Part shown: positions 5,401 through 59,032 of the stretch, in pieces | How the letters are laid out: each line of letters starts with the position of its first letter | Position numbering within the stretch: position 1 is the stretch's first letter | Assembly: GCA_943736015.1 (NCBI GenBank) | Contig: OX031071.1 | Span: 126,501-190,500, forward strand | Length of the DNA: 64,000 bases | Reading direction: 5' to 3' | Origin: Tridacna crocea | Lineage: Eukaryota > Mollusca > Bivalvia > Cardiida > Cardiidae | Notes under the pieces: model-generated | Database searches by the model: none | Seen by the model: the letters and a program-made list of their open reading frames with translations, nothing else | What the model was told of the DNA's origin: nothing | Program-made: the position numbers and the translations under genes

Positions 5401-8363
5401 TGCGCAAGCTGATCCGAGACGGTACTTTACGACCACATTAGACTTTGTGCATCAGTACACTTACACAAAACAGAAAATTGCAAGAAATCGGAAAGTGTCG
5501 AAAACCTCGTAACTACAGCTTGTTACAAGCTGTAGCTACAAGGTCTTAGAAGTAAACCGACGATATTTGATGTTACTCAACATATGAAATTTGTCGTTTA
5601 AATAGTAAAACAACATTGTGGGAAAAGAAGAAAATTGTGGTTAATAAATGAAAAAAGACAAGTTTAGTAAAAAAAAAATGGACACGTGTTTATCATAAGA
5701 GACCCTGTCTATTTGCCAGTGTAATGCAGAGAAACGATTCTCCTGTACAAAATGACCCATAGGTCATTTCTCTACGTAGAGGAATGACCAAGGTTTTTAT
5801 TCTACGTAGAGAAATAAACCCAGGGTCATTATTCTACTATGAGAAATGAATCCAGAGGGTTATTTCTCTACGTAGAATAACGACCGAGTCATTTTGTAGG
5901 GGAGGATCATTTGTTTGCATTACGCCGTATATATATTTCAAGATATTTCTTGTTTTGTCTTTCCCCAGCACCAGGAATTACCAATGTTTATTCTGCGGGT
6001 ACTCAGGTACAAATGGAAAGCAAAGTAAGTTCTAGATATCATCAATATCCTTGTGTTCTCTTTACCAAAAAACTAAATAATTTAGATTTGTCCATTTGCG
6101 GACAATTGATTTAACCCATTACCACACAATCCCTACTTTTGACGACCCGGAGAAAGAAGCGTTTGGAAAACATTGTGGGAAAAGGAGAAAATGCTGGTAA
6201 CCAGCATTTTCTCCTTTTCCCACAATGTTTTCTACCCTACACAAAACAAATTTCAATTTTCAGTCTCTTATTTCGTTATCTGCAAATGCTTTCGATTTGG
6301 ACGAACCTAAAATGTTGCCATTTGGTAATGAGTTAATGTTTGATTGTACGGTGTTTAACGCTGTTTTCAATATTATTTCATTATATCGCGGCGGCCAGTA
6401 CACCTACCCATGTTTTCCTGGAGTATCTTTTACCAGTACCCCACCCAATTTTCTCACCAAGTCACTGGCAGCATGCTCACATAACCATCTTCGAAACAAT
6501 GGCAGGCAGTAGGAGAGGAATTAATCCTGTCGAAACTGAATAATTTTGCGGACGACAGGTATTATATGGCTTACAGAAATGGCATCCTCGGATACCCCGG
6601 GGTCTCCCTATTTGCTACGCTACATCGACCCCTGGGACAAATGACTAATAAAACTTTGAATCAGCCGCCGAAAATCGATACGAAACGTCATAACGTACAG
6701 TCCACTCGCCCATCACAAAATGATGATGGAACCAATGAAAAGCCAGCATTCGGCCAGCGGTAAAGCGAGGGAAATTCAATTAATTGTCCCAGGGGTCGAT
6801 GTAGCGTAGCAAATAGGGAGACCCCGGGGTATCCGAGGATGCAGAAATGGCATTCGTCCTCGAGGGTTAATTTGAATGCATTGCTGAAATGGAAAAAAAG
6901 TTACCGGGAATTTCTACTTTTCTCGCAATGTTTTCTAATGCCACCCTCTGTTTTCTAATGAATACAGTTTTTAAGTTTTGATATATATATGTGACCCATA
7001 ACGCAAAAAGGTACTGTCTGGGAACCACGAAAAGTATCAACTCTGATCAGACTGTACGAATTGCGCAGGCTGACCAGGGTTGACACTTTTCACTTTTATG
7101 ACATTTTCTGAATGAAAAGTGGTCATTGTACCTTGTTATACAATCATTTTTTAATTCTCAACTTAAACTGACCTGCACTATCGTTGATCTGTTTTCATCT
7201 AATTGATGTTTTTACTTATTCAGTTAGTCAGAGAATTTCATGAGAGGAAAGAACACTTGAAGAAAAGATGCCAAACAATGAAGAAGACGAAGATGAATAA
7301 ACGGAAGCCGCACTATAAACTTCAACAAATTAATTATATAAAATCCAACAACATCACTTTTTGTCCCGTTGAGAAAGCTGCGTCCACATTTTGGCAGAGA
7401 GTTCTGTTTCTTGCGAGCGGCCATGACTCTACAAATAGATCTGATGTATTTTCGGTCTCACCTTGGGAAGCATATTCTAATAAACATATGAATAAATTTA
7501 CTAAAGATGACAACGTCATTGATATTGTAAACCATTCGAAGAGTTTTATGTTTGTCCGCGATCCTTTCACAAGGCTATTCTCTGGTTGGCTGGACAAGTT
7601 CTTTTCTCCGAATCCGTATTATTATAAAAATGTGGGTCGTAGAATTATACGCGAAGAAAGACCACAGGCTTCGGAGACAAGTTTACGTTGTGGACATGAC
7701 GTAACTTTTCAGGAATATGTCGCTTTCATTTCTAAAGCTATTTTGAATGGAGAGAGCGTAGATCGACATTTTTTACCGAGTTATTTTCACTGTGATGTTT
7801 GCAGCATGGATTTTCAGTATATTGGAAAATATGAAAACTTGGCGGAGGAATACAAGTTCATGTTAGGGCGACTTGGAATCAAGGACAGCGTCGCAGTACC
7901 GCCAAACTTCGCTGAAGAATCAGTTCTCGATATGATAAACGATGGTGTGGAATGGGTGTTTACTGTGAAACAACACCTGACTTTGTGCATGCAATTTCGG
8001 GTGGCACTATTTCGTGTGTGGAAGCGTTTAATAAGTAGAGGAGTTATAAGCAAACGAATGATGTATCCGTACACCAATCCTATTAAAGCTTACGGACTGA
8101 AAAAGGACGACTTTCGAAAAGTTCTTATCGATGCCCATAAAAAAAGTAGAACCGAGGAATTGTCTACAAACCGAGACGAAGTTCTCGCCGAGGCGTTTCA
8201 CTCTTTAAACGAAGAAACATTTAATAGAATGTTAGAAGCTTTTAGTGATGATTTTGACCTGTTCAATTACTCAAAATACCCGTCTTTTATGGCGCTGGAT
8301 CCGGCTGCTAATGACGAGAATAGATATTTACAGCCATATCCGCCGAGTGTTCCGAAACCCTGA
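2369..8363 (+). CDS. Carbohydrate sulfotransferase (CHST8-14-like), multi-exon gene
   Basis: Predicted type II Golgi enzyme that transfers sulfate from PAPS to a sugar, probably on a glycosaminoglycan or N-glycan. The model joins 5070-5169, 5969-6024 and 7224-8363 (431 residues); a second possible first exon is at 2369-2435. Seen: CPVEKAASTFWQ at about residues 99-110, in the place of the family 5'-phosphosulfate loop; VRDPFTRLFS at about 163-172, the 3'-phosphate loop; and YIGKYENL at about 251-258. The N-terminus is basic (FRRRKK) followed by a hydrophobic anchor. Introns have GT/AG ends with phases 1 and 0. The length fits the Sulfotransfer_2 family. The fold assignment is firm, but the exact sugar acceptor cannot be read from sequence. 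Introns hold a CTT microsatellite, a MULE-like element and several MITEs. Confidence 0.85.
2477..2945. repeat. (CAT)n/(ATT)n trinucleotide array
   Basis: About 470 bases of TCA/CAT/CAG triplets, with CAGCAG blocks recurring at about 2686, 2780, 2841 and 2900, so a higher-order unit is present. It is in the intron after 2435. Confidence 0.95.
3280..3440. mobile_element. Palindromic MITE, GACCCAGGTCAGC family
   Basis: Hairpin arms ATCGACCCAGGTCAGC / GCTGACCTGGGTCGAT at 3310-3355, flanked by GAAAAGGGGGCT and GGATCGGTTTACCC. Related pieces are at 16540 and 18400. Confidence 0.7.
3503..3735 (+). mobile_element. Hairpin MITE subfamily 2, complete
   Basis: TTAACCCTTTACTCCATAG start; core GAAATTGCTCGTGACGAGC; GGTAAAGGGTTAA end. 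Confidence 0.92.
3793..3860. repeat. Hairpin MITE fragment
   Basis: Only GAAAACATCGTTGGAAAAGG and near flanks remain; the rest of 3860-4430 shows nothing recognised. Confidence 0.55.
4430..4655 (+). mobile_element. Hairpin MITE, complete with decayed right end
   Basis: Left TTAACCCTTTACCAAACAAT intact; right end reads TTTGGAAAAATAG. Confidence 0.88.
4738..5002. repeat. (CTT)n/(TTG)n microsatellite
   Basis: Two CTT blocks, each introduced by GGCTGTC-GGTTGTTG, so the array contains a direct repeat of about 125 bases (4728 and 4855). It ends 60 bases before the signal-anchor exon. Confidence 0.93.
5070..5169 (+). CDS. Sulfotransferase first coding exon, type II signal anchor
   Basis: ATG at 5070 opens a basic cluster (MFRRRKKC) followed by a hydrophobic stretch of about 17 residues (TVLLFMCIVTIAWVSL), the classic N-terminus of a Golgi sulfotransferase. 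It ends in phase 1 at CTGG|GTAAAT. A T-rich tract plus ACAG directly upstream (5048-5064) also looks like an acceptor, so the exon may begin at 5065 in some transcripts. That pyrimidine tract may derive partly from the neighbouring CTT/T-rich repeat. Confidence 0.7.
5335..5500. mobile_element. GATCAGCCTGCGC palindromic MITE, right-truncated
   Basis: Starts GCAACACACGAAACGGGGCA; hairpin CTCGGATCAGCCTGCGCAG / GCGCAAGCTGATCCGAG at 5379-5425. The second half is cut at the next palindrome. Confidence 0.78.
5502..5567. repeat. Small palindrome, CTCGTAACTACAGCTTG family
   Basis: Arms meet at TTGTTACAAG; a sister copy is at 21936-22018, ending in the same AAACCGACG motif. Confidence 0.7.
5745..5903. 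repeat. TCTACGTAGA minisatellite
   Basis: Four degenerate units built on TTCTCTACGTAGAGAAATGACC in alternating orientation, bounded by GTACAAAATGACC and GTCATTTTGTAGG. Confidence 0.75.
5969..6024 (+). CDS. Sulfotransferase stem-region exon
   Basis: A 56-nt exon between TTTCCCCAG and GTAAGT. It reads (G)APGITNVYSAGTQVQMESK, a short polar linker typical of the stem between membrane anchor and catalytic domain. It takes phase 1 in and leaves in phase 0. Confidence 0.75.
6111..6336 (+). mobile_element. Hairpin MITE, complete
   Basis: TTAACCCATTACCACACAAT to TTTGGTAATGAGTTAA, near-perfect hairpin. Confidence 0.94.
6380..6530 (-). mobile_element. SINE S2, reverse, 5' truncated
   Basis: Reverse complement of the body at 44290-44430 (CATGTTTTCCTGGAGTATCT, CACTGGCAGCATGCTCACAT). 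Confidence 0.65.
6583..6841. mobile_element. Non-autonomous MULE-like element with 58-bp TIRs and 9-bp TSD
   Basis: CATCCTCGGATACCCCGGGG at 6583 is matched by its reverse complement ending at 6841; the two 58-base arms (6583-6640, 6784-6841) appear perfect. CAGAAATGG flanks both sides (6574-6582, 6842-6850). It lies in the second sulfotransferase intron. Confidence 0.88.
6990..7208. mobile_element. TGTGACCCATCACGC-family palindromic MITE, truncated
   Basis: Starts TGTGACCCATAACGCAAAAA and contains CTGATCAGACTG...GACCAGGGTTGACAC. It ends at ATCTAATTGATG, 15 bases before the splice acceptor of the catalytic exon. Confidence 0.75.
7224..8363 (+). CDS. Sulfotransferase catalytic exon (Sulfotransfer_2 domain)
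   Basis: A 379-codon terminal exon after the acceptor TTACTTATTCAG. It carries the whole catalytic domain: the PAPS loops named in the gene entry, a conserved HF-P...C..C segment (RHFLPSYFHCDVCSMDFQYI) and a C-terminal FSDDFDLFNYSKYPSF block resembling the end of chondroitin and dermatan sulfotransferases. An in-frame ATG at 7206 lies upstream of the acceptor and would lack an anchor, so it is not chosen as the start. The stop is TGA at 8361-8363. Confidence 0.88.
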   Translation, partial: LVREFHERKEHLKKRCQTMKKTKMNKRKPHYKLQQINYIKSNNITFCPVEKAASTFWQRVLFLASGHDSTNRSDVFSVSPWEAYSNKHMNKFTKDDNVIDIVNHSKSFMFVRDPFTRLFSGWLDKFFSPNPYYYKNVGRRIIREERPQASETSLRCGHDVTFQEYVAFISKAILNGESVDRHFLPSYFHCDVCSMDFQYIGKYENLAEEYKFMLGRLGIKDSVAVPPNFAEESVLDMINDGVEWVFTVKQHLTLCMQFRVALFRVWKRLISRGVISKRMMYPYTNPIKAYGLKKDDFRKVLIDAHKKSRTEELSTNRDEVLAEAFHSLNEETFNRMLEAFSDDFDLFNYSKYPSFMALDPAANDENRYLQPYPPSVPKP

Positions 8364-44400: not shown

Positions 44401-47400
44401 AAGAAACACCAGGAAAGCATGGGCAGGAGCACTGTCTGCTGCAATATTGAAATAATGTTGAAAACTTATTAACTATTAACCCTTTACTCCATAGATACTC
44501 ATTTTTATGCATTGCTTGTAGGAGCATTTGGAAAACATTGTGGCAAAAGGCGAAATTGCTCGTGACGAGCAATTTCACCTTTTGCCACAATGTTTTCTAA
44601 GCTATCAAAAGGTGTCATATACACGTAAGAAACAGCTTCATCCTTGCTGTTATTTAGGGTCAATTAGAGATACCATAGAGACACCTTATGGGGTAAAGAG
44701 TTAAACACCATACAGTCAATCAATTTAGTTTTGTAAGCTTTAAAACTCACTGGCTTAACTCTTTACCTCACAATCCCGACTTTTAATGACCCTGACAAAA
44801 AAGCCTTTTGAAAACATTGCAGGAAAAGGAGTAAATGCTGGTAACCAGCATTTTCTCCTTTTCCTGCAATATTTTCTACCCTTTTAATGACAAATGCCAT
44901 TATTTGAACCAGATTTTATTTGTTGTCTGCAACTGCATTCAGTTTGGCCAAGTCCAAACATTTGTCGTTTGGTACAGGATTAAATGCCATACAATTAGCT
45001 TATCAATTTACCACTGTGTTAAAAACTTAAAAACTGTAATTTTTAGTCGAGTAGAAGAATCTACGCCATCTAGTCAGAGTTCTTCACAGACGGAACGGAA
45101 CTTGTTTCTCCAAACCTTGGGCATCATTGCGAAACAGGCAGCGGGCGAGAAGCCAATGGTGTCAGGTTCAAGTCTGAGTAATGTGGTGGGTGCATATGAA
45201 ATAGCTAATGTTTCATCCAACGTGGAACAGACCAGCAGGAAATCTGTATCCAAGGTGACAACAACCTCTGTGAAGGTTTTGGCCTCCAGGTACAGTATAT
45301 AGAGCCTTTAACATGTGAAAAGGGAGCATTCAGACATTTGTCTATAGTTTTGTTTTGGATCAGCCTGCACAGTTGGTACAGACAGATCTAAGTATTCTAT
45401 GACTAAATCAGATTTTGTGCTACAGTTGACTTGCATAATACAGAAAATTACATAAAACGGAAAGTGTTGTTTCACATTATCCTGCATGAACTGCACAGGT
45501 GATCTGCGAGGACACTTTATGCAAATGTTTGGATGCCCCTTTTCGCACGCTGTAGACCATATAAAGATTTTCTCAACTATTTACTGAAAAGGGGTTTGCA
45601 TGGCTCATTTGTAAATTGAGACTCATGACCTGGAGGACCTAGGCTGAAGCCCACTGGATATAGTGGGTTTTTCATGGGAATGTCCTTGGGCAAGACAATT
45701 CAGAACCCTAGCCTAGTAGTGGTGGAACCCAGAAAATACATGAATATGCAAACTGAAATAATGTTAAAAGAGGCATAAAACACCATTAGATTAATCAAGC
45801 TTGATGAAAATTTCTTTTGTTTCGCAACCCATCAAATGAAGACATTTTCGAAACATTCCTGGAATAGGAGTAATTGCTGGTTAGCAGCATGTTTTCCTTT
45901 TCCTTTTCCTGTGATATTTTCTACTTTTTTAGAACGGATCCACTCATCATTATTGCTTGTTAATTGTCCATACAAATGCTAAATGCGAACATTGAAACTT
46001 TGGTTCTATTACATAACTTCTTTTGTTTTCAGTGTAATATTATATATATACCCATTGCTATTTTTCTTTCTCATACGTGTTTGACACCACAATTGCGTGA
46101 CATCATATTTTGATGTCATTTTAACCCATTACCACACAATCCCTACTTTTGATGCCCCTGTTAACCCTTTCCCAAACAACAAATTTTGGACTCTTCCAAA
46201 CCCAAAGAGTTTGCAGGCGACAATTTTAGATTTGGAGAAAGTGGCACAAATTCTTAAAAAAAAGGTAGAAAACACTGTGGAAAAAGGAGAAATTGCTCGT
46301 TACGAGCAATTTCTCCTTTTCCCACATTGTTTACTAAAGACTTGTACTGAAGACACGTAAAAACCAGGTCTTGTTTGGGAAAGAGTTAAAGAAGCCTTTT
46401 GAAAACATTGTGGGAAAAGGAGACAATGCTGGTAACCAGCATTTTCTCCTTTTTCCACAATGTTTTCAACTCTTCACAACACAAAATTTTAAATTTTCAG
46501 ACACTTTTATTTTGTTGTCTACAAATGCTTTTGATTTGGACAAGCATAAAATATTGTCGTTTGGTAATGAGTTAAATGTATTTCATAAAAGTGAACAGGC
46601 TTTATAAACAGTACCATGGTTGGGTACAAATCCAAAGCATTTGCAGACAACATTTTAAACTGGGCTCAAATAATCGACCTAATCTTTGATAGAGTAGAAA
46701 GACATTGTGGAAAAAGGAGAAAATGCTCTTTACCAGCATTTTCTCTTTTTCCAACAATGTTTTCAAAAGACTTCTTACTCAGGATTGTGGAAAGTAGGGA
46801 TTGTTTTGTAAAGACTTAACCCATTACCACACAATCCCAATCTTTTGATGCCCCTGAGAAAGAAGTCTTTAGAAAACGTTGTAGGAAAAGGAGAAAATGC
46901 TGGTTACCAGCATTTTCTCCTTTTCCTACAATGTTTTCTACCCTTCACAAAACAAATTTCAAATTTTCAGTCACTTTTAATTTGTCGTCTGCAATTGCTT
47001 TCAATTTGGACCAGTCTAAAATATTGTCGTTTGGTAATGGGTTAAGCTTGCCAAAGACCTACTTGATAACAGTTTTTGTAGACAGGTTTGATAAAATATT
47101 ATCTCCAAGACCCAACTCATGTCTGATCCTATAATGATTATATAATTATTATTCTAACATGACACGCGACTTTGGCTCTATAAACACAGTGCAAGGAAAA
47201 CGTGGTAAAATCTGCGACAATCCATGTAGAGTGACGTCATTCAATGAGTGAGTTATTCAATGGAACATTATCTTCATCCGCGTTTTTACTCTAAATTTGA
47301 ACTTGTTTTCATTTCACTAAGAATTGGCAATGTTAGAATCGAAATAATCTTCTTTCTATCGCGGTATATCGTTCAATAAACCACGTTGTGAGTTATGTGG

Positions 47401-50400
47401 CGCAATGAATAACCCACTCAGGCTATCGCCCTCGTGGATTATTTATTGTGCCCCATAACTCACAACTGTGGTTTATTGAACGATATACCAAGATAGAAAG
47501 AAGATTATTTCCTAATTCAATACATGCTTCTCATGTAATTTATCATTTTTATTTACCAGCCTCAGTACAGTGTATGGCAACTTGACAACAAGCCATGAAG
47601 GTATGTGGCCTTCTTTTGTATTATCATACCCCCCTCCCCCCCCCCCCCCACCTACAAAATAGAGGGGGGGGAGGGGGGGGGGTTTATTGGTTTCGCCATG
47701 TCTGTTTTTCTGTTCGGCAGTCCAACCGTGTTTTCATTTCTGTGCTTTAACTCCTTTAACTCAAAAGCCAATTGACCTAGGACCTTCAAACTTTGTACAA
47801 GTTTTGCCCATGGCCCAAGGTGTTGCCCAATTGTCTTTGGGTTATATGGGTCAAAGGTCAAGGTCACAGGTGAACTATGTTTGAAAATGGTTTTCATGTT
47901 CTAACTCAAAGCTGTTTTACTTGCATTTGACTTTGTCTTTTCATGAAAGTTGCAAAGATTCTTTATATCATTTGATAGCTTGAAGGTTATTGATTTTGAA
48001 AAAAAAAATCTGACCATTAGGAAGGGAAAAGTAGCCAGTTATAGTTGAAAATTTTAACTGCCTAATTTTTTTAGATTTTCATATCCTATTGATTTTGAAA
48101 AAAATCTGACTATTAGTAAGGGAAAAGTAGCCAGTTAAAGTAAAAAATTTTCACTCCTGCCTAATTTTTTTTCAAATTTTCATATCCTATTGATTTTGAA
48201 CAAAATCTGACAACTAGAAAGGGAAATGTAGCTGTTTAAAGTTTCAACAATCACATTTCTTGTAAATGCAATTAAGTCTGCATTTCTGGTCTGATTTTTG
48301 TGAAACTTGCACAGTGTCTTTATATAATCAATAGCTTAAACTCTATCGATTATGAAAAACATCCAACTGTTGATGCAGGAAAAGTAGCCAGTTTTTGCAA
48401 AATCAATGCAGGGAGAGCAACTTAGGCCCTCAAAGGCCTCTAGTTTAACTCTTTACCACACAATCCCAACTCTTAACGACCCTGAGAAAGAAAACCTATG
48501 AAAACATAGTGGGAAAAAGAGAAAATGTTGGTAACCAGCATTTTCTCCATTTCCCACAATGCTTTCTACCCTTTCCAATTCAAAATTGAATTTTTGGTTT
48601 ACATTTATTTTGTCATCTGCAAATGTTTTCAATTTGGACTAGTCCAAAATTTTGTCATTTGGTAAAGAGTTAAATTAATTATGGAATTTTTTTTTTAACA
48701 TTTCAGATGAGATCTCAATGCACAAAGATAATGAAATTATCTGGGGACTGTTGAACCTTTCTGATCAGAGGCTAAAACCAGAAGGTATTTCACTTATAGT
48801 TGACCCATTCTCTATGAAAAGGGGGGTTAACCCTTTACAACCTGGCACAATTTTAGACCTATCCAAATTAAAAGCATTTGCAGACAACAATTTTATAGTG
48901 CCTCAAATGGCACAAATTTTCTTTTATAGGGTAGAAAACTTTATGGGAAAAGGTGAAAATACCATTTTCTTTCCTAGGATTGATGATAGTCATTGCAACA
49001 GGATTCATTCTTCTCTTTCTACTGACCATTGTCTTGACGATGGTTATGTGAGAAAGCAGCCAGTGGCTTGGAAAGAATATTGTGCAGAGCACTGGTGAAA
49101 GAAACTGAAGGAATGGTATCCTGGGCCCGTATTCACCAACCATCCTTAAGAACGTTCTTGGTCTTATTCTTCAAGATTTCCTGAATGTGAAAGTAACAGA
49201 ACTTCTGATTGGCTAAACCATTTGGTTTAGCCAATCAGAAGTTCTGTTACTTTCAAAATGACAAAATTTTGAAGAATGAGACTAAGAATGGTCTTGAGAA
49301 TGGTTGGTGAATACCGACCTCTTGTTTTTTTTGGGGTATTTTTTCTTTATTACCAATACTTGTGGTTTTCTACATCTTACAAAATGTCAGATTTAACTCT
49401 ACTAAATGAGGTAATTTTGGTCTGCTGAAATGGAAATAAATTGCATTTGACTAATATAGAGTGGTTAAAAAGGTAGTATTTTTTATCTGTTAAGGAAGAA
49501 AACTGTGGAAAATGCAGAAAATACTCTTTATGAGCATTTTCTCCTTTTTCCACAGTGTTTTTAATGCCTTCAACCTCGGAGCCATAAAAACTAGAAAGGG
49601 TTAAAGAATGAAAGCATTAATTGCTGACAACAGAATCTGTAGATATCAGAAGAGGTATTAAAACACATTGTGGGAAAGGGAGAAAATGCTGACAACCAGC
49701 ATTTTCTCCTTTTCCTACAATGTATTATCTGAAACAATGTCTCAGGGGGTTTTATACACAGGGCATTGTTTGGTGAAGGGTTGTGTTATTTTTTGTACAG
49801 ATGCTAAAAGACCAGATACAGCTGAAGGTCACATGAAGGTCACAGATCAAAGTTCAGTTACAGCCACATCTGTAAGTATTAACTCTTTACCGAACAATGA
49901 AATTTTAGACCAGTCCAAATTGAAAGCACTTGCAGATGACAAAATGAACGCAACTCAAAAATTTGAATTGTTTCCAACAGGGTAGAGAACATTGTTGGAA
50001 AAAGAGGAAATGCTGATTACCAGCATTTTCTCCTTTTCCCACAATGTTTTCAAAACGGACCAGGGATTGTTTGGGAAAGAGGTAAACCAAATTCCAATTG
50101 TGAAAAAGGTGTGGGAAAAGGAGAGAAAATGATAGCAACCGTCATTCTCTCCTTTTCCTACATCTTCTTTACTATCAAGCAAAAATTCCATCATTTAGGG
50201 GACCATAAGTCTGTCGTCTGCAGATTCTTTTCAATTTTGACTTGTTAAAAATTCTGTTATTTGGAACAGAGATAGTGAAGAATAATAGAGATACTCCCTT
50301 CAATGACGGCCATTTTTCAGTTATTTCCCATAACCCCTCTCCAGTACTATATTGGTCTTGATAAGGAGATTACTTGGTTTTTATCCTTGATTTTTATGCA

Positions 50401-53400: not shown

Positions 53401-56400
53401 AAGTAGAACTAAATCAAGAAATTGTGGAAATTGGTTCAATTAATCATGACGAAGACGAGACACTCTCCGCTGATTTAAGTGACGAGATTCAGTCAGAAAA
53501 ATTGTTTGAGATAGAGCTTGAAGACCATACAATTCATGAAGGGTCTACTATTTCAAGTGTACAATATACAGAAAACCAGGCAATTAACAGATGCATTGAG
53601 AACCAGTCCATTTCAACTGAAACACATGTATGGAACGATAAGGAAATAGAAACATTTACAGACACTGGTGTTTCCATGGATACTTCAACAGAAAACTTTC
53701 AAAAAGATGTGGAAATTACTGAACAAAATCAGGAAATTTTGTTGGAACAGAATCCTGCAAAACATATAGAAGAGACCAATGTGGAGGCAGAAAGGGTTGA
53801 TAAGTTACCTACAGATGTTGACATAGATATGAACAAAACCAAAGATATCAAATGCGGACTGTGTAGTCAAGATTTTTCAACTGTGGAATTGCTAAAGGTA
53901 TAGAATTTTGACGTTTCTTTTTGGAAATGCTTACTAAGCAATTCATAGTTGTTACAATTGTATGCAAGAAGACCTTTTAAGTGTAGCTTGACTCACTAGC
54001 CTTGTACAGTGTAGATCAAGATCAGGCTGCATAGAACATGCAGTCTAACATTGGGACTACACTTTCTGATATGGGGATAGTTTTTTAAGAAACAAGTTTT
54101 AAATAATATTCTGTGGAGTTTTACTTTCAGCAGCTGGAAAATTTTACATAGCTTACTGTATTTCTTCTACCAAGAGCACTCCCCCCCATAGAGGCTTCCC
54201 CTCCCCCAATAGAAAACCCTTAACCCTTTACTCCACAGATACTCATTTCTACGCATTGCTTGTAGGAGCCTTTGGAAAACATTGTGACAAAAGGTGAAAT
54301 TGCTCGTCACGAGCAATTTCACCTTTTGTCACAATGTTTTCTATGCTACCAAAAGGTTTCATATACACGTAATAAACAGCTTCATCCTTGCTGTTATTTA
54401 GAGTCAATTAGAGATACCTTGGAAATGCCTTATGGGGTAAAGGGTTAACCCTTTACCACAGACCACAGAATGACGACTTTTGACAACCCTGAGGAAGAAG
54501 CCTTTTGAAAAAATTGAGGGAAAATGAGAAAATGCTGGTAACCAGCTTTTTCTTCTGTTCCCACAATGTTTTCAAAAGGCTTCTATCTCAGGGTCGTCAA
54601 ACCAGTGATTGTTTGGTAAAGGGTTAAAAGGGCTGGTACATGTTAGTGTTAAGCCCTATTTGAATTTTTTTTTTTTTTTCAGACCCATTTGATGAAGAAA
54701 GCGGAACTGCGACCATACGTCTGCGAATACTGTGATGCTGGGTTTACAAATGCACAGTCCCTAAAAATCCATCTGAACACTCACGCCCAGGTATCTTTTT
54801 GTTTGTTTGCCTGGAAATTTACCCAACTCCCACTGGAGGTTTAGTACAGCTCAGTGGTTTTGTGTAAGCCTTATAACCTAGAGGCCCCGGGTTTGAGCTG
54901 CAGTAGACATGCTGTTTTTTTTTTTTTTCGTGAGAGTGTCTTTCAAAAAATCTGGTTGCCATGGCAACAAAACTGAAAAATATTGAATATCTTTGAAAAT
55001 CTTCTTGTCTGAAACCATAAGACCTGAAAATCTTCTTGTCTGAAACCATAAGACCCAGGGCTTCCAAATTTGGGATGTAGCTTTATCTGATCGACTTCGA
55101 AATCTCCCTGTTCCCAGCCATATGGATTAGGGCTACCTAATTTTTCATGTGGCTTTATCTAGTGTGCCCCTACCAAGAGTGCCCAAATTATAGCCTTGGG
55201 GTCAAAGTTGGCTACACCTAGGGGTCACAAGTTTTATATGGACTTATATAGTGAAATATTTAGAAATCTTCTTGCTATTAACCATAAGAACTTGGGCTAC
55301 CAATGTTAGTGCTGTCTCAGTGGTCTTATGTTCAAAACCAAGCGGCCAAGTATTGTAATGTTTGGCATGTAGGGATTTTAGCTCACCTGATTTTTAGCTC
55401 ACAAAGTGCTCATAGTGAGCTTTTGTGATTGCCCAATGTCCATTGTCCGTCGACCACGATTCTCCTCCTAAGCCACTGGGCCAATCTTGATGAAACTTAG
55501 CAGGGATGTTCCTTGGGTGAAGCTCTTCTAAAGTTGTTCAAGAGATTGAATTCCACCCATAATTCTGGTTGCCATGGCAACCAGAAGGAAAAAAAATAGC
55601 AAAACCTTTGAAAGTCTTCTTCTCTGAAACTAGAAGGCGTAGAGCTTTGATATTTGGTATGTAGCATCTCCTAGTGGACCTCTATTTAGATTGTCCATAT
55701 GATGCCCTTGGGGTCAAACCTGGCCCGCCCCAGGGGTGACAAGCTTGAAACACACATGTAGGAACAAAGAAGGAAAAATTTAAAATTCTTCTTCTCTGAA
55801 ACTGGAAAGCTTAGAGCTTTGATATTTTGTATGAAGCATCTTCTAGTAAACCTCTTCCAAGTTTGTTCATATGATGCCGCTGGGGTCCAAACTGGTCCTT
55901 CCCCGAGGGTCACAATTATGAACATGGGAAAAAAAGGAAAACTTTAAAATTCTTCTTCTTTGAAACCAGAAAGTGTTTATCTTTGATATTTGATATAAAG
56001 CATCTCCTAGTGGACCTTTGCTAAGTTTATTCATATGATGCCCCTGGGGTCATAATTGGCCCAGCCCTGGGGGTCACAAGGTTAAACATGAGAACTATAA
56101 AGGAAAAAAAAATAAAATTCTTCTTCTTTGAAACTAGGAGGGTAGAGCTTTGATATTTGGTATGAAGCATCTACTAGTGGACCTCTCCCAAGTTTGTTCA
56201 TAAGATGCCCCAGGGGTCAAAACTGGCGACCAGGGGTTCACAAGTTCTAAACATAGGAAGAAAAAAGGAAAACTTTAAAATTTTTCGGAGAGCTTTGATA
56301 TTTGGTTTGTCAAATTGACTTGAGACTTGGTGAACATGTTTGTTGTATTGCCTGCCCTTTGCAACTATTATACCTCCTCGACAACTGCCGATGGGATTGG

Positions 56401-57468
56401 CATATGTTGCAATAATTTGCCACTCTTGTTTCATTATCATTTGGCCTTGAACCTCAATATCTGGTATTTATCTTCATTGTAGACCTTTACTGCTTAGTAC
56501 TCAGGTGAGCGATATAGGACCATCATGGTCCTCTTGCATGTATTAGCCAGTGGAGCAATACAGGGCCATTATCGCTCTCTTATTTTTAATTTTATCTTCA
56601 GATAAAATATATGAAGAAATGAAATTCTGCTTTACAGGAAACGCCATATGTATGTGGAATGTGTGGAATGAAGTTTGCTAGTTCAGAAAAGCTGTGGAAC
56701 CATTCAAAAGAATTACATTCTCAAGATCAGTGTTGTGACCTTCATTTAAAACCACATGACACAGACTGTGCTTCAGAATTACACTCAGACATACAGTTTA
56801 CTACAAGTTCAAACTCGGTTGATGTTACACAGTCTATCATTCAATGTGATTCAAAATTACCAACAGATAGTGAGTGTAGAGGAAATAATTCCGGTGAAAT
56901 GGATGTGAATAAATCTGTATCAGATTTAGAGTTAGGCATGCATTCTACATTAAATAGATCTCTGAATGAAAGCTTAAAGTTCAAGACAAATAGTATAAAT
57001 GAGTTTGACTATCACAATAACAGTACAACAGTTCTTAAAAATTGCAAAGAGCAGAACCAGTCTGAATTTGAAAGACTGGTTGCACAGTCGGCTTGTAGTG
57101 AAATTCCAGTTTCAGAACCAGTCAACAATGTTGTTGAAATAAGCACAAGCAATGATTTCGAAGCAGAAAATGAGAACCTGACTTATATCAACACAGTTGT
57201 CATTGAAACAGGTGAACAATATACATGTAATACTGTTGAAGACACATTTTATGACAGTACAAATATTCCTAAAGATTGCAGCAAAGAAAATGAGGAGAAC
57301 CAGTCTGAATTTGAGAGACTGGTTACACAGACAGTTTATAATGAAATTCCAGTCTCAGAACCAGTCAACAATATGGTGGAAATAGATGCCAGCAATGATC
57401 TCAAAGAGGAAAACGAGAGTATTAATACAGTCACTGTTCAAACAGAAGAACTACAGAGTACTTTTTGA
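26396..57468 (+). CDS. HIVEP/shn: Schnurri/HIVEP (ZAS-family) zinc-finger transcription factor, 14 exons
   Basis: A nuclear DNA-binding regulator. In flies, Schnurri works with Mad/Medea in Dpp/BMP signalling; vertebrate HIVEP1-3 bind kappaB-like sites. The 14 exons total 9,351 nt in one frame (3,116 residues; vertebrate members are about 2,400-2,700). Seen: ZAS-N pair at 267-315 (CPYC...HIRAHTGERPYPC...SFKTKSNLYKH); central CCHC finger at 1243-1264; IRGRGRGRY then ZAS-C pair at 1853-1903 ([20 protein letters not shown]); an acidic tract; three C2H2 fingers at 2444-2538; three more units at 2790-2867, the first lacking its fourth ligand. The protein has repeated RxxS[LV] sites and an 81-residue C-terminal duplication. 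The RGRGRG plus ZAS-C match makes the family certain. Intron phases are all compatible. The stop lies in a MITE edge. Confidence 0.95.
27572..27855. mobile_element. Hairpin MITE, tail-tail form
   Basis: Both flanks are tail type (CAAACGACAAATGTTTGGAC left, GTCGTCTGCAGATGCTTTC right). Right TTAA 27852 is shared with the next copy. Intron 1. Confidence 0.82.
27852..28077 (+). mobile_element. Hairpin MITE, complete with decayed right end
   Basis: TTAACTCTTTATCACACAAT to CGTTTGGTATAGAATA; adjoins the tail-tail copy. Confidence 0.88.
28413..28566. repeat. 53-bp minisatellite, three units
   Basis: GAAGAAAGTTGTCAGGTA...TTTGGACAGATCTTCAA repeats three times; the first unit lacks 8 bases. It lies 130 bases before Schnurri exon 2. 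Confidence 0.85.
28697..28771 (+). CDS. HIVEP/shn: Schnurri exon 2
   Basis: Encodes residues 15-38 (QFSVDEDVDPSLETNPPVCK...) between TACTTTCAG and ACTG|GTAAGT, phase 1 on both sides. Confidence 0.8.
29683..30010. repeat. Inverted pair of 5S-like GGATGGGTGACC segments
   Basis: GTCTGGATGGGTGACCAGGT then GTTGCACGTTAC occurs on + at 29974-30007 and on - at 29682-29716. GGATGGGTGACC is the conserved 3' motif of 5S rRNA genes, suggesting 5S-derived SINE heads. Confidence 0.5.
30048..30345 (+). mobile_element. SINE S1 (tRNA-derived), complete
   Basis: tRNA-like head with A-box TATAGCTCAATAGG and B-box GGTTCGAATCC. The anticodon loop carries extra bases, so it is not a working tRNA. Body: CTTTCGGATGAGACGTTAAA, GCACGTTAAAGAACC; tail AATAAACGAAAATAATC. 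Confidence 0.85.
30459..30670 (-). mobile_element. Hairpin MITE, core tip deleted
   Basis: Reads GGAGAAAATTTTCTCC: the GCTGG..CCAGC tip is gone, so the hairpin has no loop. Confidence 0.85.
30765..30890. repeat. Decayed hairpin MITE
   Basis: AATGCTGGTTACCAGTAATA with altered arms. Confidence 0.5.
30907..31128 (-). mobile_element. Hairpin MITE, degraded left arm
   Basis: TTAACTCTTTTCCACACAAC; tip GCTGATTATCAGT. Confidence 0.78.
31233..31355 (+). CDS. HIVEP/shn: Schnurri exon 3
   Basis: Residues 40-79, acidic and Ser/Thr-rich (SFTPTNSEEETLSEPVKPL...). The acceptor is TCTTTAAATAG, the donor GCAG|GTAAGT, with phase 1 on both sides. Confidence 0.82.
31532..31647 (+). CDS. HIVEP/shn: Schnurri exon 4
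   Basis: Residues 81-118, acidic and ending in RNLSLEALFQ. Phase 1 in, phase 0 out at CCAG|GTATGA. A hairpin MITE starts 8 bases past the donor. Confidence 0.82.
31656..32161 (-). mobile_element. Hairpin MITE split by SINE S1
   Basis: Pieces 31656-31681 and 31986-32161 make one copy; the intervening 31682-31985 is a SINE. Intron 4. Confidence 0.88.
31682..31985 (-). mobile_element. SINE S1, reverse, with 11-bp TSD
   Basis: ATGACAAGATT at 31671-31681 and 31986-31996 flanks it. The tRNA-like head is at the right (TACTGAGCTATATTGGC in reverse) and the tail at the left. Confidence 0.9.
32190..32330. repeat. Hairpin MITE fragment
   Basis: ACATTGTGGAAAAAGAAGAA to GTCGTCTGCAAGGAG; ends lost. Confidence 0.6.
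32333..32561 (-). mobile_element. Hairpin MITE, complete, with paired tip change
   Basis: Tip is GGTGGTAACCACC instead of GCTGGTAACCAGC: both arms changed together. Confidence 0.92.
32567..32726 (-). mobile_element. Hairpin MITE, internally deleted
   Basis: 160 bases, TTAA to TTAA; right arm lost (GAGAAATGCTGGGATTGTGA). Confidence 0.8.
32811..33039 (+). mobile_element. Hairpin MITE subfamily 3, complete
   Basis: TTAACCCTTTACCAAACAAG; arms ACACTGTGGG / (C)AACAGTGT; tip GCTCGTAACGAGC. Confidence 0.88.
33189..33827. mobile_element. TGTGACCC MITE interrupted by another element
   Basis: Left part to about 33333 and right part from about 33737 together match 17906-18157. Confidence 0.78.
33334..33735. 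mobile_element. CTAACATGACAC element, about 400 bases, nested
   Basis: Matches 47152-47515 along its length. Its right half is a palindrome: CGTTCAATAAACCACGTTGT ... GTGGTTTATGGAACGATATA. Confidence 0.82.
33914..34137 (+). mobile_element. Hairpin MITE subfamily 2, complete
   Basis: TTAACCCTTTACTCCATTGA; tip GCTCGTAACGAGG. Confidence 0.85.
34225..34357 (-). mobile_element. Hairpin MITE, left-truncated
   Basis: Arms carry GAAGAAAATGC / GCATTTTCTTC; ends ATGTTAAAG 20 bases before exon 5. Confidence 0.82.
34377..34529 (+). CDS. HIVEP/shn: Schnurri exon 5
   Basis: 51 codons (residues 119-169; VTDTELQAISKQGPG...ELIYEQE), phase 0 on both sides. It lies between two hairpin MITEs, one ending 20 bases before the acceptor and one starting 10 bases after the donor. 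Confidence 0.82.
34539..34765. mobile_element. Hairpin MITE, tail-tail form, one arm deleted
   Basis: Tail sequence on both sides; only the tip and right arm remain. Confidence 0.78.
34944..35033 (+). CDS. HIVEP/shn: Schnurri exon 6
   Basis: 30 codons (residues 170-199; DDPDEVPLLSTHSGQIKH...). The acceptor TTTTTTTTTGTCTAG is strong; the donor is GAG|GTTTGT. Confidence 0.8.
35067..35295 (+). mobile_element. Hairpin MITE, complete
   Basis: First of the intron-6 cluster; its right TTAA is shared with a tail fragment (35292-35374). Confidence 0.92.
35373..35601 (-). mobile_element. Hairpin MITE, complete
   Basis: TTAACCCGTTACCACATGAG; tip AAGTTACCAGC. A fragment follows at 35624-35709. Confidence 0.88.
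35710..35938 (-). mobile_element. Hairpin MITE, complete
   Basis: TTAACTCTTTTCCATACAAC to GGTAAAGAGTTAA. Confidence 0.9.
36039..36229 (+). mobile_element. Hairpin MITE, right arm deleted
   Basis: Left arm ends GCTGGTTACCATCC and runs straight into tail sequence. Confidence 0.82.
36465..36693 (+). mobile_element. Hairpin MITE, complete
   Basis: Tip ACTGGTAACCATT; arms partly mismatched. Confidence 0.9.
36735..36788. repeat. Fragment of the 10078 palindrome family
   Basis: GAAAATATTACCGAAGATGT and CTCATGGCTGTGCC match its centre. Confidence 0.55.
36789..37017 (+). mobile_element. Hairpin MITE, complete
   Basis: Ends 34 bases before the giant exon 7. Confidence 0.92.
37052..42534 (+). CDS. 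HIVEP/shn: Schnurri exon 7, giant exon with ZAS-N, CCHC and ZAS-C fingers
   Basis: 5,483-nt exon for residues 200-2026. It holds both ZAS finger pairs and the central CCHC finger. Between the pairs lies a long Ser/Thr/Pro/Gln-rich, low-complexity region (about 450-1150) typical of an activation or recruitment domain. A region at about 1710-1780 (SYPTLRSLTHMTFCCIDKPQ, SNWCIAQNNSNLFGLSTKK) resembles the conserved block before ZAS-C in vertebrate HIVEPs. Acidic run DEDDDD...EEGEEDDMEEDLSED follows ZAS-C. Giant central exons are also found in vertebrate HIVEP genes. It leaves in phase 2 at GATGG|GTGAGT. Confidence 0.96.
42567..42796 (+). mobile_element. Hairpin MITE, complete
   Basis: Starts 32 bases after exon 7; arms AACGCTGTGGG / CCCACAGTGTT. 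Confidence 0.93.
42842..43378 (-). mobile_element. Hairpin MITE subfamily 3 cluster with tandem half-units
   Basis: A left half (42842-42977), a full copy (42978-43204), then two extra right halves (43205-43290, 43291-43378). Each half begins CGAGCAATTTCTCC and ends TTTGGGAAAG.GTTAA/CA. Confidence 0.9.
43379..43490. mobile_element. AGATCAAGATCAGAC palindromic repeat
   Basis: Adjoins the half-unit array; GGCTGCTAAGCGTGACTC start. Confidence 0.72.
43512..43740 (-). mobile_element. Hairpin MITE subfamily 2, complete
   Basis: Arms have GTGACAAAAGGTG / CATCTTTTGTCAC, a further paired change from GTGGC. Confidence 0.9.
43809..44033 (-). mobile_element. Hairpin MITE, complete
   Basis: Left end GTAAACTCATTACTAAACGA; right GGTAATGGGTTAA. 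Confidence 0.88.
44200..44460 (+). mobile_element. SINE S2, longest copy
   Basis: Head GCTCCGGTAGCTCAGTTGAT with A-box; body to GGGCAGGAGCACTGTCTGCT. Confidence 0.75.
44475..44704 (+). mobile_element. Hairpin MITE subfamily 2, complete
   Basis: Near-perfect arms TTGTGGCAAAAGGCG / CACCTTTTGCCACAA. Confidence 0.93.
44755..44983 (+). mobile_element. Hairpin MITE, complete
   Basis: Arms TTGCAGGAAAAGGAG / CTCCTTTTCCTGCAA: another paired change. Confidence 0.92.
45047..45289 (+). CDS. HIVEP/shn: Schnurri exon 8
   Basis: Residues 2028-2107 (RVEESTPSSQSSSQTERNLF...KVLAS), phase 2 on both sides, between AATTTTTAG and CCAG|GTACAG. It is Ser/Thr-rich with no recognised domain. Confidence 0.82.
45308..45555. 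mobile_element. GATCAGCCTGC palindromic MITE, diverged
   Basis: GAAAAGGGAGCATTCAGACA ... CCCCTTTTCGCACGCTGT; starts 18 bases after exon 8. Confidence 0.72.
45590..45780. repeat. SINE-like unit
   Basis: TTGGGCAAGACAATTCAGAA and GACCTGGAGGACCTAGGCTG suggest a tRNA-derived SINE; only one copy here. Confidence 0.4.
46121..46575 (+). mobile_element. Hairpin MITE carrying a nested hairpin MITE
   Basis: Outer copy is split after GATGCCCCTG (46160) and resumes at AGAAGCCTTTTGAAAACATT (46390). Confidence 0.92.
46161..46389 (-). mobile_element. Nested hairpin MITE subfamily 3 with TTAA duplication
   Basis: TTAACCCTTTCCCAAACAAC to TTTGGGAAAGAGTTAA, complete. Confidence 0.92.
46607..46819 (-). mobile_element. 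Hairpin MITE, left end decayed
   Basis: Tip GCTCTTTACCAGC; shares its right TTAA with the next copy. Confidence 0.82.
46816..47045 (+). mobile_element. Hairpin MITE, complete
   Basis: Arms TTGTAGGAAAAGG / CCTTTTCCTACAA, paired change. Confidence 0.92.
47152..47515. mobile_element. CTAACATGACAC element, second copy
   Basis: Same order as 33334-33735, about 40 bases shorter in its left half. Confidence 0.82.
47560..47600 (+). CDS. HIVEP/shn: Schnurri exon 9 (micro-exon)
   Basis: 41 nt (residues 2108-2121; SLSTVYGNLTTSHE), phase 2 in and phase 1 out. The strong acceptor TATTTACCAG, donor GAAG|GTATGT and frame fit on both sides support it. Confidence 0.75.
47628..48440 (+). mobile_element. Dispersed bivalve-type repeat with tandem core
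   Basis: Starts in C-run/G-run DNA (GGTTTATTGGTTTCGCCATG) and ends CAAAGGCCTCTAGTTT. TCATATCCTATTGATTTTGA ... GGGAAAAGTAGCCAGTTA recurs every 90-120 bases at about 47960, 48075 and 48175, with a diverged unit at 48340. Confidence 0.72.
48445..48673 (+). mobile_element. Hairpin MITE, complete
   Basis: Abuts the previous repeat; ends 33 bases before exon 10. Confidence 0.92.
48707..48784 (+). CDS. HIVEP/shn: Schnurri exon 10
   Basis: Residues 2122-2147 (DEISMHKDNEIIWGLLNLSD...), phase 1 on both sides, between AACATTTCAG and GAAG|GTATTT. Confidence 0.8.
48827..48973 (-). mobile_element. Hairpin MITE, cut by SINE S2
   Basis: Tail half and left arm only; breaks at ATACCATTTTCTTTCC. Confidence 0.75.
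48974..49110 (+). mobile_element. SINE S2, 5' truncated
   Basis: CCTAGGATTGATGATAGTCA to GGTGAAAGAAACTGAAGG. Confidence 0.7.
49125..49322. mobile_element. Long palindromic MITE, GGCCCGTATTCACCAACC
   Basis: About 95-base arms meeting at CTAAACCATTTGGTTTAG; ends CGTATTCACCAACCAT / ATGGTTGGTGAATACCG. Confidence 0.85.
49490..49604. repeat. Diverged hairpin MITE
   Basis: Arms AACTGTGGAAAATG / CTTTTTCCACAGTG; ends GAAAGGGTTAA. Confidence 0.6.
49650..49785 (-). mobile_element. Hairpin MITE, left-truncated
   Basis: Tip GCTGACAACCAGC. Confidence 0.72.
49801..49871 (+). CDS. HIVEP/shn: Schnurri exon 11
   Basis: Residues 2148-2171 (DAKRPDTAEGHMKVTDQSSV...). Phase 1 in, phase 0 out. The donor TCT|GTAAGTA runs straight into the TTAA of a hairpin MITE at 49879. 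Confidence 0.8.
49879..50085 (-). mobile_element. Hairpin MITE, right end shortened
   Basis: Left TTAA is 8 bases inside intron 11. Confidence 0.85.
50085..50275 (+). mobile_element. Hairpin MITE, variant arms
   Basis: Arms GGAGAGAAAATGA / TCATTCTCTCC share an extra GA on both sides. Confidence 0.72.
50280..50770. other. Intron DNA without recognised repeat
   Basis: Nothing coding; ACAAGGGAGATAATTTGAC at 50664 is a short string shared with other gene-free parts. Confidence 0.45.
50775..51000 (-). mobile_element. Hairpin MITE, complete
   Basis: TTAACTAATTACCAAACAAC; right end GGTAATGGATATA. Confidence 0.9.
51004..51222 (+). mobile_element. Hairpin MITE, complete
   Basis: Subfamily 3-like ends (CCCTTTCCCAAAC) with a subfamily 1 core: a chimera. 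Confidence 0.9.
51405..51560. mobile_element. Palindrome, AATCAACTGGTT arms
   Basis: GATAATCAACTGGTTGTTTT...ATATCTCACGAGGATGCG faces CGCGTCCGAGTGAGATAT...ATAACCAGTTGATTATT. Confidence 0.82.
51765..51848. repeat. Palindrome, GGGTACTCATTAGAA
   Basis: AACCGTTTGTTATGGGTACTC / GAGTACCCACAGCATAAGGTT, about 35-base arms. Confidence 0.78.
51999..53897 (+). CDS. HIVEP/shn: Schnurri exon 12, three C2H2 fingers plus half a fourth
   Basis: 633 codons (residues 2172-2804). A Ser/Thr-rich first half is followed by three fingers at 2444-2464, 2473-2495 and 2516-2538, the last reading CELCDIAFRVRGHLTKHFRS with an LEDIGKLPVGTW extension. This cluster corresponds in position to the C-terminal finger triplet of fly Schnurri. 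An acidic region follows, and the exon ends in the middle of another finger (CGLCSQDFSTVELLK). Confidence 0.92.
53970..54083. repeat. AGATCAAGATCAGGC palindromic repeat
   Basis: Fourth copy of the 25178 family, diverged. Confidence 0.65.
54220..54448 (+). mobile_element. Hairpin MITE subfamily 2, complete
   Basis: Arms GTGACAAAAGGTG / CACCTTTTGTCAC; right TTAA shared. Confidence 0.92.
54445..54627. mobile_element. Hairpin MITE, head-head form
   Basis: Head sequence at both ends (AATGACGACTTTTGACAACC and AGGGTCGTCAAACC). Confidence 0.85.
54683..54790 (+). CDS. HIVEP/shn: Schnurri exon 13, finger exon
   Basis: 36 codons completing the finger begun in exon 12 (THLMKKAEL; the expected second His is Lys) and encoding a full C2H2 finger at 2818-2838 (CEYCDAGFTNAQSLKIHLNT, then H). 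Phase 0 on both sides. Confidence 0.9.
55377..56545. mobile_element. AGCTCACCTG-bounded element with tandem units
   Basis: TAGCTCACCTGATTTTTAGC at left and ACTCAGGTGAGCGATATAGG at right. Inside, GAAACTAGAAGG.. then AGAGCTTTGATATTTGGTAT and GATGCCCCTGGGGTCA repeats about five times, 130-170 bases apart. Confidence 0.75.
56638..57468 (+). CDS. HIVEP/shn: Schnurri exon 14, last finger and C-terminus
   Basis: 276 codons and TGA. It opens with a C2H2 finger (CGMCGMKFASSEKLWNH...H, 2846-2867), then a Ser/Asn/Glu-rich tail containing two copies of an 81-residue unit with NQSEFERLV at residues 2980 and 3061. The stop TGA at 57466-57468 lies in the TTGA where the MITE target TTAA should be, so this 3' end may not be ancestral; see the pseudogene-like segment at 57657. 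Confidence 0.88.
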   Translation, partial: ETPYVCGMCGMKFASSEKLWNHSKELHSQDQCCDLHLKPHDTDCASELHSDIQFTTSSNSVDVTQSIIQCDSKLPTDSECRGNNSGEMDVNKSVSDLELGMHSTLNRSLNESLKFKTNSINEFDYHNNSTTVLKNCKEQNQSEFERLVAQSACSEIPVSEPVNNVVEISTSNDFEAENENLTYINTVVIETGEQYTCNTVEDTFYDSTNIPKDCSKENEENQSEFERLVTQTVYNEIPVSEPVNNMVEIDASNDLKEENESINTVTVQTEELQSTF

Positions 57469-57655
57469 CCATATACCACACAATCTCAAGAGTTAACACC
57501 CTGAGAAATAAGCCTTTTGAAAACATTGTTGTAAAAGGAGAAAATGTTGGTAACCAGCATTTTCTCCTTTTCCCGCAATGTTTTCTAACCTCAGATCTGC
57601 ACATGCTTTCAAAATTTGGTATAACCTAAAAATTTGTCATTAGGTAAAGAGTTTT
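57465..57655 (+). mobile_element. Hairpin MITE in the last Schnurri exon
   Basis: TTGACCATATACCACACAAT left, TTAGGTAAAGAGTTTT right; core arms well matched. About 35 bases missing in the tail half. Confidence 0.88.
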
Positions 57656-57656
57656 A

Positions 57657-57758
57657 GATGGTGCAAAAGGCAGTTCTGGATGTGAAAACGACAACGAAAG
57701 TGCATATAACCCTATGTTTACACCATGTCCCTGGCAGCCACAGAAGCCCTCTTTCTGA
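57657..57758 (+). other. Open 33-codon segment, probable former or alternative Schnurri C-terminus
   Basis: Directly beyond the hairpin MITE, a frame opens as DGAKGSSGCENDNESAYNPM and ends QPQKPSF with TGA at 57756-57758. TTTTAG at 57652-57657 can serve as an acceptor (phase 1). Phase-1 donors exist at 57212 (ACAG|GTGAAC) and, weakly, at 57458. Either this is sequence cut off by the MITE insertion, or it is spliced on with the MITE as intron. Coding status is inferred from composition only. Confidence 0.5.
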
Positions 57759-57879
57759 CAACAGTGGACAAAATGGGATCGATTTAATACAACACAGAGG
57801 TATGTTATAAGTAAAGCGGATCGCATCAGAACTTACTTGCATGTAACTAACGGTAACAAGACTCAGAGATGTTCCATGT

Positions 57880-58102
57880 TTGGATAAGGAAGCCCTTTTT
57901 CTTTTTCTCTGATAGAAAAGGTTTTAAAAAAAAAATTGTGGGAAAAGGGGAAAATACCGGTAACCAGCATTTTTCTCCTATACCAGCAATGTTTTCCAAG
58001 CCTCTCATATAAAACTTTATTTTTGACTCATGATGATTTTGTGATTTGCAAATGCTTTGAATTTGAGCAAGTCTACGTTTTTGTTGTGTGGTAAGGAGTT
58101 AA
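57880..58102 (+). mobile_element. Hairpin MITE, head decayed
   Basis: Tip ACCGGTAACCAGC; tail end GTGTGGTAAGGAGTTAA. Confidence 0.75.
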
Positions 58103-58181
58103 ACTAGAAACTTTTGATCAGCAAGATTTATTTTTCAGATAATTTAAAGTAACAACTGGATTTGACATCATGTATACTATC

Positions 58182-58358
58182 TCAACCTTTTACCAAACAA
58201 TCCTTGGTCTTTATGGCCCTAAAAATGAAGCCTTTAGAAAACATTGTGGGAAAAGAAGAAAATGCTGGTTACCAGCATTTCCTCCTTTTCCCACAATGTT
58301 TTCAAAAGGCTACTATTCCAGACCCGTAAAAACCAGTGATTATTTGGTAAAGGGTTAA
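58182..58358. mobile_element. Hairpin MITE, head-head form
   Basis: ACCAAACAATCCTTGGTC and AACCAGTGATTATTTGGT mirror each other. Confidence 0.82.
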
Positions 58359-58689
58359 AGGATATTTACAGATGAAATGGAATTAGGATAAGCTGTACTA
58401 CCGACACCACATCATAAAACAACGTTTACCTGTAGAAAATCGTTCATGTGTGATAAATTTCTGTCGATTATCGGAAGAAATAATCGCAGAGGTGTTACTG
58501 CATTGATACTGGGTCAGTAGGTACTCGTATGTGCTAGAAATCACGTTTTGAACCATTTTATTCAAAATGATCACAATTTTACCACTATAACAAGAATTTT
58601 TGTTAATGTTACGTTTGTTTTGTTGGAGTCCTGTTACAAATCTATCATGAAGTATGTGCTGTTAGTTACGTTTTGTTTGTTATAATGTA

Positions 58690-58715
58690 AATAAAAGTGA
58701 TAATATGAAAATAAA
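58690..58715 (+). terminator. Candidate poly(A) signals of the Schnurri gene
   Basis: AATAAA occurs at 58690 and again at 58710 in A/T-rich DNA, about 1.2 kb past the stop, suggesting a MITE-containing 3' UTR. Confidence 0.4.
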
Positions 58716-58735
58716 CATCTGTTATGTTATTATGG

Positions 58736-58890
58736 AAAAACCCATTACCACACAATCTTGTGTTTTAATAACATTTAACATTGTTGAAGGAGGAGAAAAT
58801 GCTGGGAATCAGCACTTTCTCCCAGTATTTTTATTTTGTTGGATGCAAACATTTTCAATTTGGTTTAGTCTAAAATTTTGTTGTGGACCA
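58736..58890 (+). mobile_element. Hairpin MITE, shortened arms
   Basis: AACCCATTACCACACAATCT; tip GCTGGGAATCAGC. Confidence 0.7.
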
Positions 58891-59032
58891 TTTAAGTGGC
58901 TAGAGATTTTTGTATGCAACAGTGCCACAGAACTTCCAAAGAACCCTAGTCTAGGCTAGAGCTCATGTCCATTTATGATTTGGTATCAAATATACTAGTA
59001 TTGTTTGATCAATAAATGAATAAATTGTGAAT

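Follow-up and report, generated by a model that had tools for sequence, protein, structure and literature searches.

In a 64,000-nucleotide stretch of the genome of the bivalve Tridacna crocea (contig OX031071.1, positions 126,501 to 190,500 of the forward strand; hereafter the window), a Schnurri/HIVEP-like gene ends in a coding exon that runs directly into a copy of a miniature inverted-repeat transposable element (MITE). The best overall explanation, which we consider very probable on the sequence comparisons below, is that an old insertion of this element truncated the protein and left a short remnant of the former coding sequence behind it. The related protein P0121 joins both flanks of the element gaplessly and lacks the element, which strongly supports the interruption of an ancestral frame. 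The features around the junction are as follows.

56638-57468, plus strand: last coding exon, including the TGA at 57466-57468; P0121 aligns over most of it.
57046-57418, plus strand: an 81-codon unit present twice in tandem and in frame (matching segments 57046-57175 and 57289-57418), the copies sharing 82% DNA identity.
57465-57656, plus strand: MITE copy, bounded on the left by TTGACC and on the right by GAGTTTTAG, that interrupts the ancestral frame.
57657-57707, plus strand: C-terminal remnant; the residues immediately following in P0121 are homologous to its 17 codons.
57708-57758, plus strand: remainder of the stranded frame (16 codons, then TGA), not coding-like and with no counterpart found in P0121.
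57469-58715, plus strand: predicted 3' untranslated region (UTR) of ~1.2 kb, delimited by poly(A) signals.
57891-58100, plus strand: further member of the MITE family, inside the predicted 3' UTR.
58184-58354, minus strand: further member of the MITE family, inside the predicted 3' UTR.

A search with the gene's main exon identified P0001, which is 76% identical to that exon and is encoded on a contig of 4,480,712 bases. P0121 was the sole protein found at E<=10 with the last exon (one of 723 candidates), and again the sole one at that threshold in a second search with this exon (one of 2,444). It is 62% identical to the exon over 197 columns and likewise lies on a contig of 4,480,712 bases; the two proteins are taken as parts of what would be one orthologous gene. 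A profile search with P0121 and the joined window tail recovered no additional relative. The P0121 frame continues through the insertion site uninterrupted, without the element. The first 17 codons behind the element match the next residues of P0121 without a gap, with a score of 48 and nine of 17 positions identical (DGAKGSSGCENDNESAY / DGEKHSYGTDNNNESVF). The two strands of the window together contain 53,638 stop-free stretches of 17 codons; the runner-up among them scores 24, and none of 20,000 shuffles of the segment attained 48 anywhere in P0121. Joined end to end, the flanks align with P0121 over 30 gapless residues with a score of 54, while the 12 other offsets tested score zero or less. 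When the P0121 tail alone is used as a tblastn query, this site ranks first in the window (E 0.031; next match, E 3.6). An initial annotation of this DNA had proposed that the element might have cut off the ancestral C-terminus, an idea borne out by this gapless reading across the site. It had also named, as proof of an interruption, a CPWQPQKPSF-like end joined directly to the exon in relatives; the direct joining was found, and the residues so joined are those of the match above, not such an end.

Behind the element, the expected frame of 33 sense codons does open at 57657 and runs to 57755, closed by its own TGA, and its reported coding appearance holds for one half of it. We scored stretches by codon statistics trained on the exons of this gene versus its introns and compared them with stop-free non-coding runs of equal length; these runs overlap, so the resulting figures are ranks, not probabilities. 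Codons 1-17 fall in the top 0.6% of 6,715 such runs. For the last 16 codons, which include CPWQPQKPSF, 34% of 7,107 runs score at least as well, and all 33 codons together rank in the top 2.1%. Neither CPWQ nor PWQPQ occurs in any of the 120 listed proteins (of 243 matched by the main-exon search), and by sequence comparison CPWQPQKPSF probably does not derive from old coding sequence, or in any case is not shared by P0121. The C-terminus behind the element is thus not intact, contrary to the initial annotation: homology covers 17 codons and stops at ~57707. P0121 extends 47 residues further; tblastn did not find these residues in the window, and in a frameshift-aware alignment of them to 57708-57967, 12 of 60 and 31 of 60 shuffles did as well. 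Near 57707 the sequence may have undergone a deletion or an insertion, or else it is the relative that changed. BLAST of 57657-57897 against the window yielded no second copy.

Openness alone proves little here, because a longer frame that starts with an ATG (57658-57807, 50 codons) overlaps the stranded one and has a rather high score too, a 49-codon part of it ranking in the top 4.1%. It is followed by a strong donor-like GAG/GTATGT at 57800 (top 0.5% of GT sites), and it could be a product of chance or an unrecognised exon. This frame, and the ease with which 33 stop-free codons arise by chance, would suit a stranded frame unrelated to the gene. Such an explanation is almost certainly wrong given the 17-residue match, with its margin of 48 over 24 and its correct place, order and register. 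A chance origin is refuted by that match for codons 1-17; for codons 18-33 it may hold.

At the junction itself, the open frame 56623-57468 ends in TTT TGA with the stop at 57466-57468, just as it was first read. This TGA lies within TTGACC and overlaps the first bases of the MITE copy. The further proposal that TTGACC is TTAACC with a single A-to-G change is plausible but uncertain. Since the first repeat unit carries GTTGAAGAC at the place matching TTGA, and P0121 encodes V-E-D there, TTGA may be host sequence rather than an altered TTAA. If the exon is read with one T fewer, the frame passes TTT and continues for ten codons into the element before it meets a stop; therefore, the insertion would end the frame regardless. 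For the stop to fall exactly at the edge of the element, the longer T-run is needed too.

The element belongs to an abundant family, with 81 merged copies (48 near full length) detected in the window by nhmmer. Their summed length is 14,352 bases, or 22% of the window. The consensus measures 239 bases including flanks, beginning with TTAACCCTTTACC and ending with GGTAAAGAGTTAA. The left end carries TTAA in 32 of 40 cases and the right end in 36 of 42; of the 27 copies complete to both ends of the model, 21 have it at both edges. With TTAA at the edges of most copies, the family is therefore a TTAA-targeting MITE: the target duplication is found at both edges at the family level, together with terminal inverted repeats, short length and high copy number. 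The family may be of the piggyBac or Kolobok type. The copy at 57465-57656 has TTGA and TTTT at its edges, each deviating from TTAA. It differs from the consensus by 18.1% (Kimura two-parameter distance 0.207, five gap openings), ranking 23rd of 48 in divergence; the copy closest to it in the window differs by 20.6%. The insertion is old, given this distance from the consensus, part of which reflects divergence between subfamilies. The RNA of this copy folds into a hairpin of -53.8 kcal/mol (z -6.1). All Rfam matches in 57400-58750 lie under the gathering scores and reflect hairpins.

The following history would account for these observations. Long ago, a TTAA-targeting MITE very probably entered the final exon of this Schnurri/HIVEP-like gene, in the part that encodes the tail, and interrupted a frame that homology shows to have continued as in P0121. 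Translation would now end at the TGA on the left edge of the element, as the last-exon position of this stop and the poor quality of the proposed splice sites suggest. The loss to the protein would amount to 17 residues or more, those that can still be recognised behind the element, and to ~64 if P0121 shows the ancestral end. Similarity breaks off abruptly at ~57707, which suggests that the rest was removed later by a deletion or some other rearrangement. The element and the remnant would most likely lie today in a long 3' UTR; its length of ~1.2 kb follows from the poly(A) signals (AATAAA/ATTAAA), the only ones in 57469-59000 being at 58690 and 58710. A stop within the last exon should escape nonsense-mediated decay. 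Three MITE copies are spread across 57465-58354, one of them inverted relative to the others, and in the predicted 3' UTR they could pair into long double-stranded RNA.

Several points weigh against this reconstruction. P0121 is the sole relative available, as a protein only, and its end is that of an open frame, not of a transcript; its orthology is based on a contig size equal to that of P0001, on the 62% identity and on position. With the whole of P0121 as the tblastn query, two diffuse, chance-like matches elsewhere outscore the site (26.9 and 24.6 versus 23.5 bits). If the element had the usual TTAA edges, the flanks are in frame only when a single base is discounted from the five Ts that precede the TGA, as the initial annotation rightly stated. 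No outgroup indicates which state of the tail is older, since alignment failed for the tails of ten other animals. Finally, the frame of the 17 stranded codons has stayed open and in register; use of the element as an intron would equally account for this.

A rival idea is that there was no meaningful truncation in this lineage: the longer tail of P0121 would be derived, and the match would be a short ancestral stretch already near the end of the protein. Molluscan tails are poorly conserved, that of P0121 does not rise above shuffles against the ten other animals (103 to 496 of 500 shuffles equally good), and homology in the window ends after 17 codons. On the other side, the 17 homologous codons would even on this view have been translated in continuation of the exon and have since been severed from it, and the last 47 residues of P0121 are, in our reading, acidic and rich in serine and threonine like the exon that precedes them. 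We regard this account as very unlikely.

An open, in-register remnant of 17 homologous codons would fit the suggestion, made in the initial annotation, that the element is removed as a new intron with its acceptor at 57657 and its donor at 57212 or 57458, so that the protein would still end in the stranded frame. Splice sites were scored on a generic consensus and ranked against all 3,867 AG and 3,467 GT sites of the window. On this scale, the acceptor at 57657 is average (60% of AG sites score as high or higher), as is the donor at 57458 (45% of GT sites), and only the donor at 57212 (CAG/GTGAAC) is good, among the best 0.9%. Five native donors rank within the top 0.4-10.1% and four native acceptors within the top 7.4%; the same scale also rates the assumed native acceptor at 45046 as average (53%). 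Use of the donor at 57212 would delete the second repeat unit; moreover, P0121 has an aspartate at the codon of this donor, which is incompatible with that GT, and the last 16 stranded codons do not resemble coding sequence. There is a precedent in other eukaryotes, where nonautonomous DNA transposons have turned into introns (PMC9860276). Overall, splicing of this kind is very unlikely. A facultative intron, whereby most transcripts end at the TGA and a minority splice from 57212 to 57657 to give a second C-terminus, strikes us as a very unlikely variant; if true, it would represent an alternative tail made by a MITE, with the remnant replacing the second 81-residue unit.

The proposed truncation concerns the last of a series of exons spread through the right half of the window. 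These exons align collinearly with mollusc proteins that bear the name zinc finger protein 40 or are described as uncharacterized; the 5' ends of some are approximate. Besides the last exon, they are as follows.

37,0xx-42,53x: exon.
Near 45,2xx: exon, from an order-conserved alignment with mollusc proteins.
48,707-48,784: exon of the same gene.
Ending at 53,897: exon of the same gene.
54,683-54,790: exon of the same gene.

Among the matches listed, the best named relatives carry zinc finger protein 40 or HIVEP annotations, or are uncharacterized mollusc proteins. Pfam zf-C2H2 matches were found in two of the three exon frames scanned. The paired C2H2 fingers and orthologous architecture typical of the family are present, and on this evidence the gene is assigned to the Schnurri/HIVEP family. 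The 81-codon unit occurs twice in the last exon of the window versus once in P0121. Estimates of dN/dS (nonsynonymous and synonymous divergence) between the two units disagree, with 0.22/0.69 by NG86 versus 0.31/0.29 by YN00. Tandem Repeats Finder reported no array in 56500-58800. The last intron holds four tandem copies of a repeat unit of ~165 bases (55594-56260). Within 48449-48706, a MITE copy stops ~35 bases ahead of the acceptor of exon 48707-48784. Elsewhere in the window, an open frame of 386 codons (7203-8363) may encode a protein resembling a carbohydrate sulfotransferase.

The proposed history would describe a MITE that shortened a large conserved regulator and was tolerated long enough to diverge by 18% from its family consensus, with the uninterrupted frame still seen in a relative. 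The case favours the idea that, in the Schnurri/HIVEP family, the tail following the last zinc finger is dispensable or evolves rapidly. It also advises caution: open frames found behind repeats need homology testing, since here one half is a true remnant and the other half is not.

Introners are introns derived from nonautonomous transposons (PMC9860276). The present case resembles them in that a short nonautonomous DNA element lies in a coding exon whose frame is open on either side, and differs in that the candidate acceptor at the end of the element scores as average on the generic consensus. The family shares with TTAA-targeting MITEs the TTAA at both edges, terminal inverted repeats of the CCC/GGG type, short length, lack of coding capacity and many copies, and differs from them by its long internal palindrome. 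Coding exons cut by the insertion of a DNA transposon or MITE are a known kind of mutation. The case described here has the same hallmarks: an exonic element, a new stop at its edge and a remnant of the old frame behind it. It differs in that the insertion is old, is apparently tolerated in a large regulator, and has left a remnant recognisable for 17 codons only. Judged from these comparisons, it is a well-supported example of this known kind of event.

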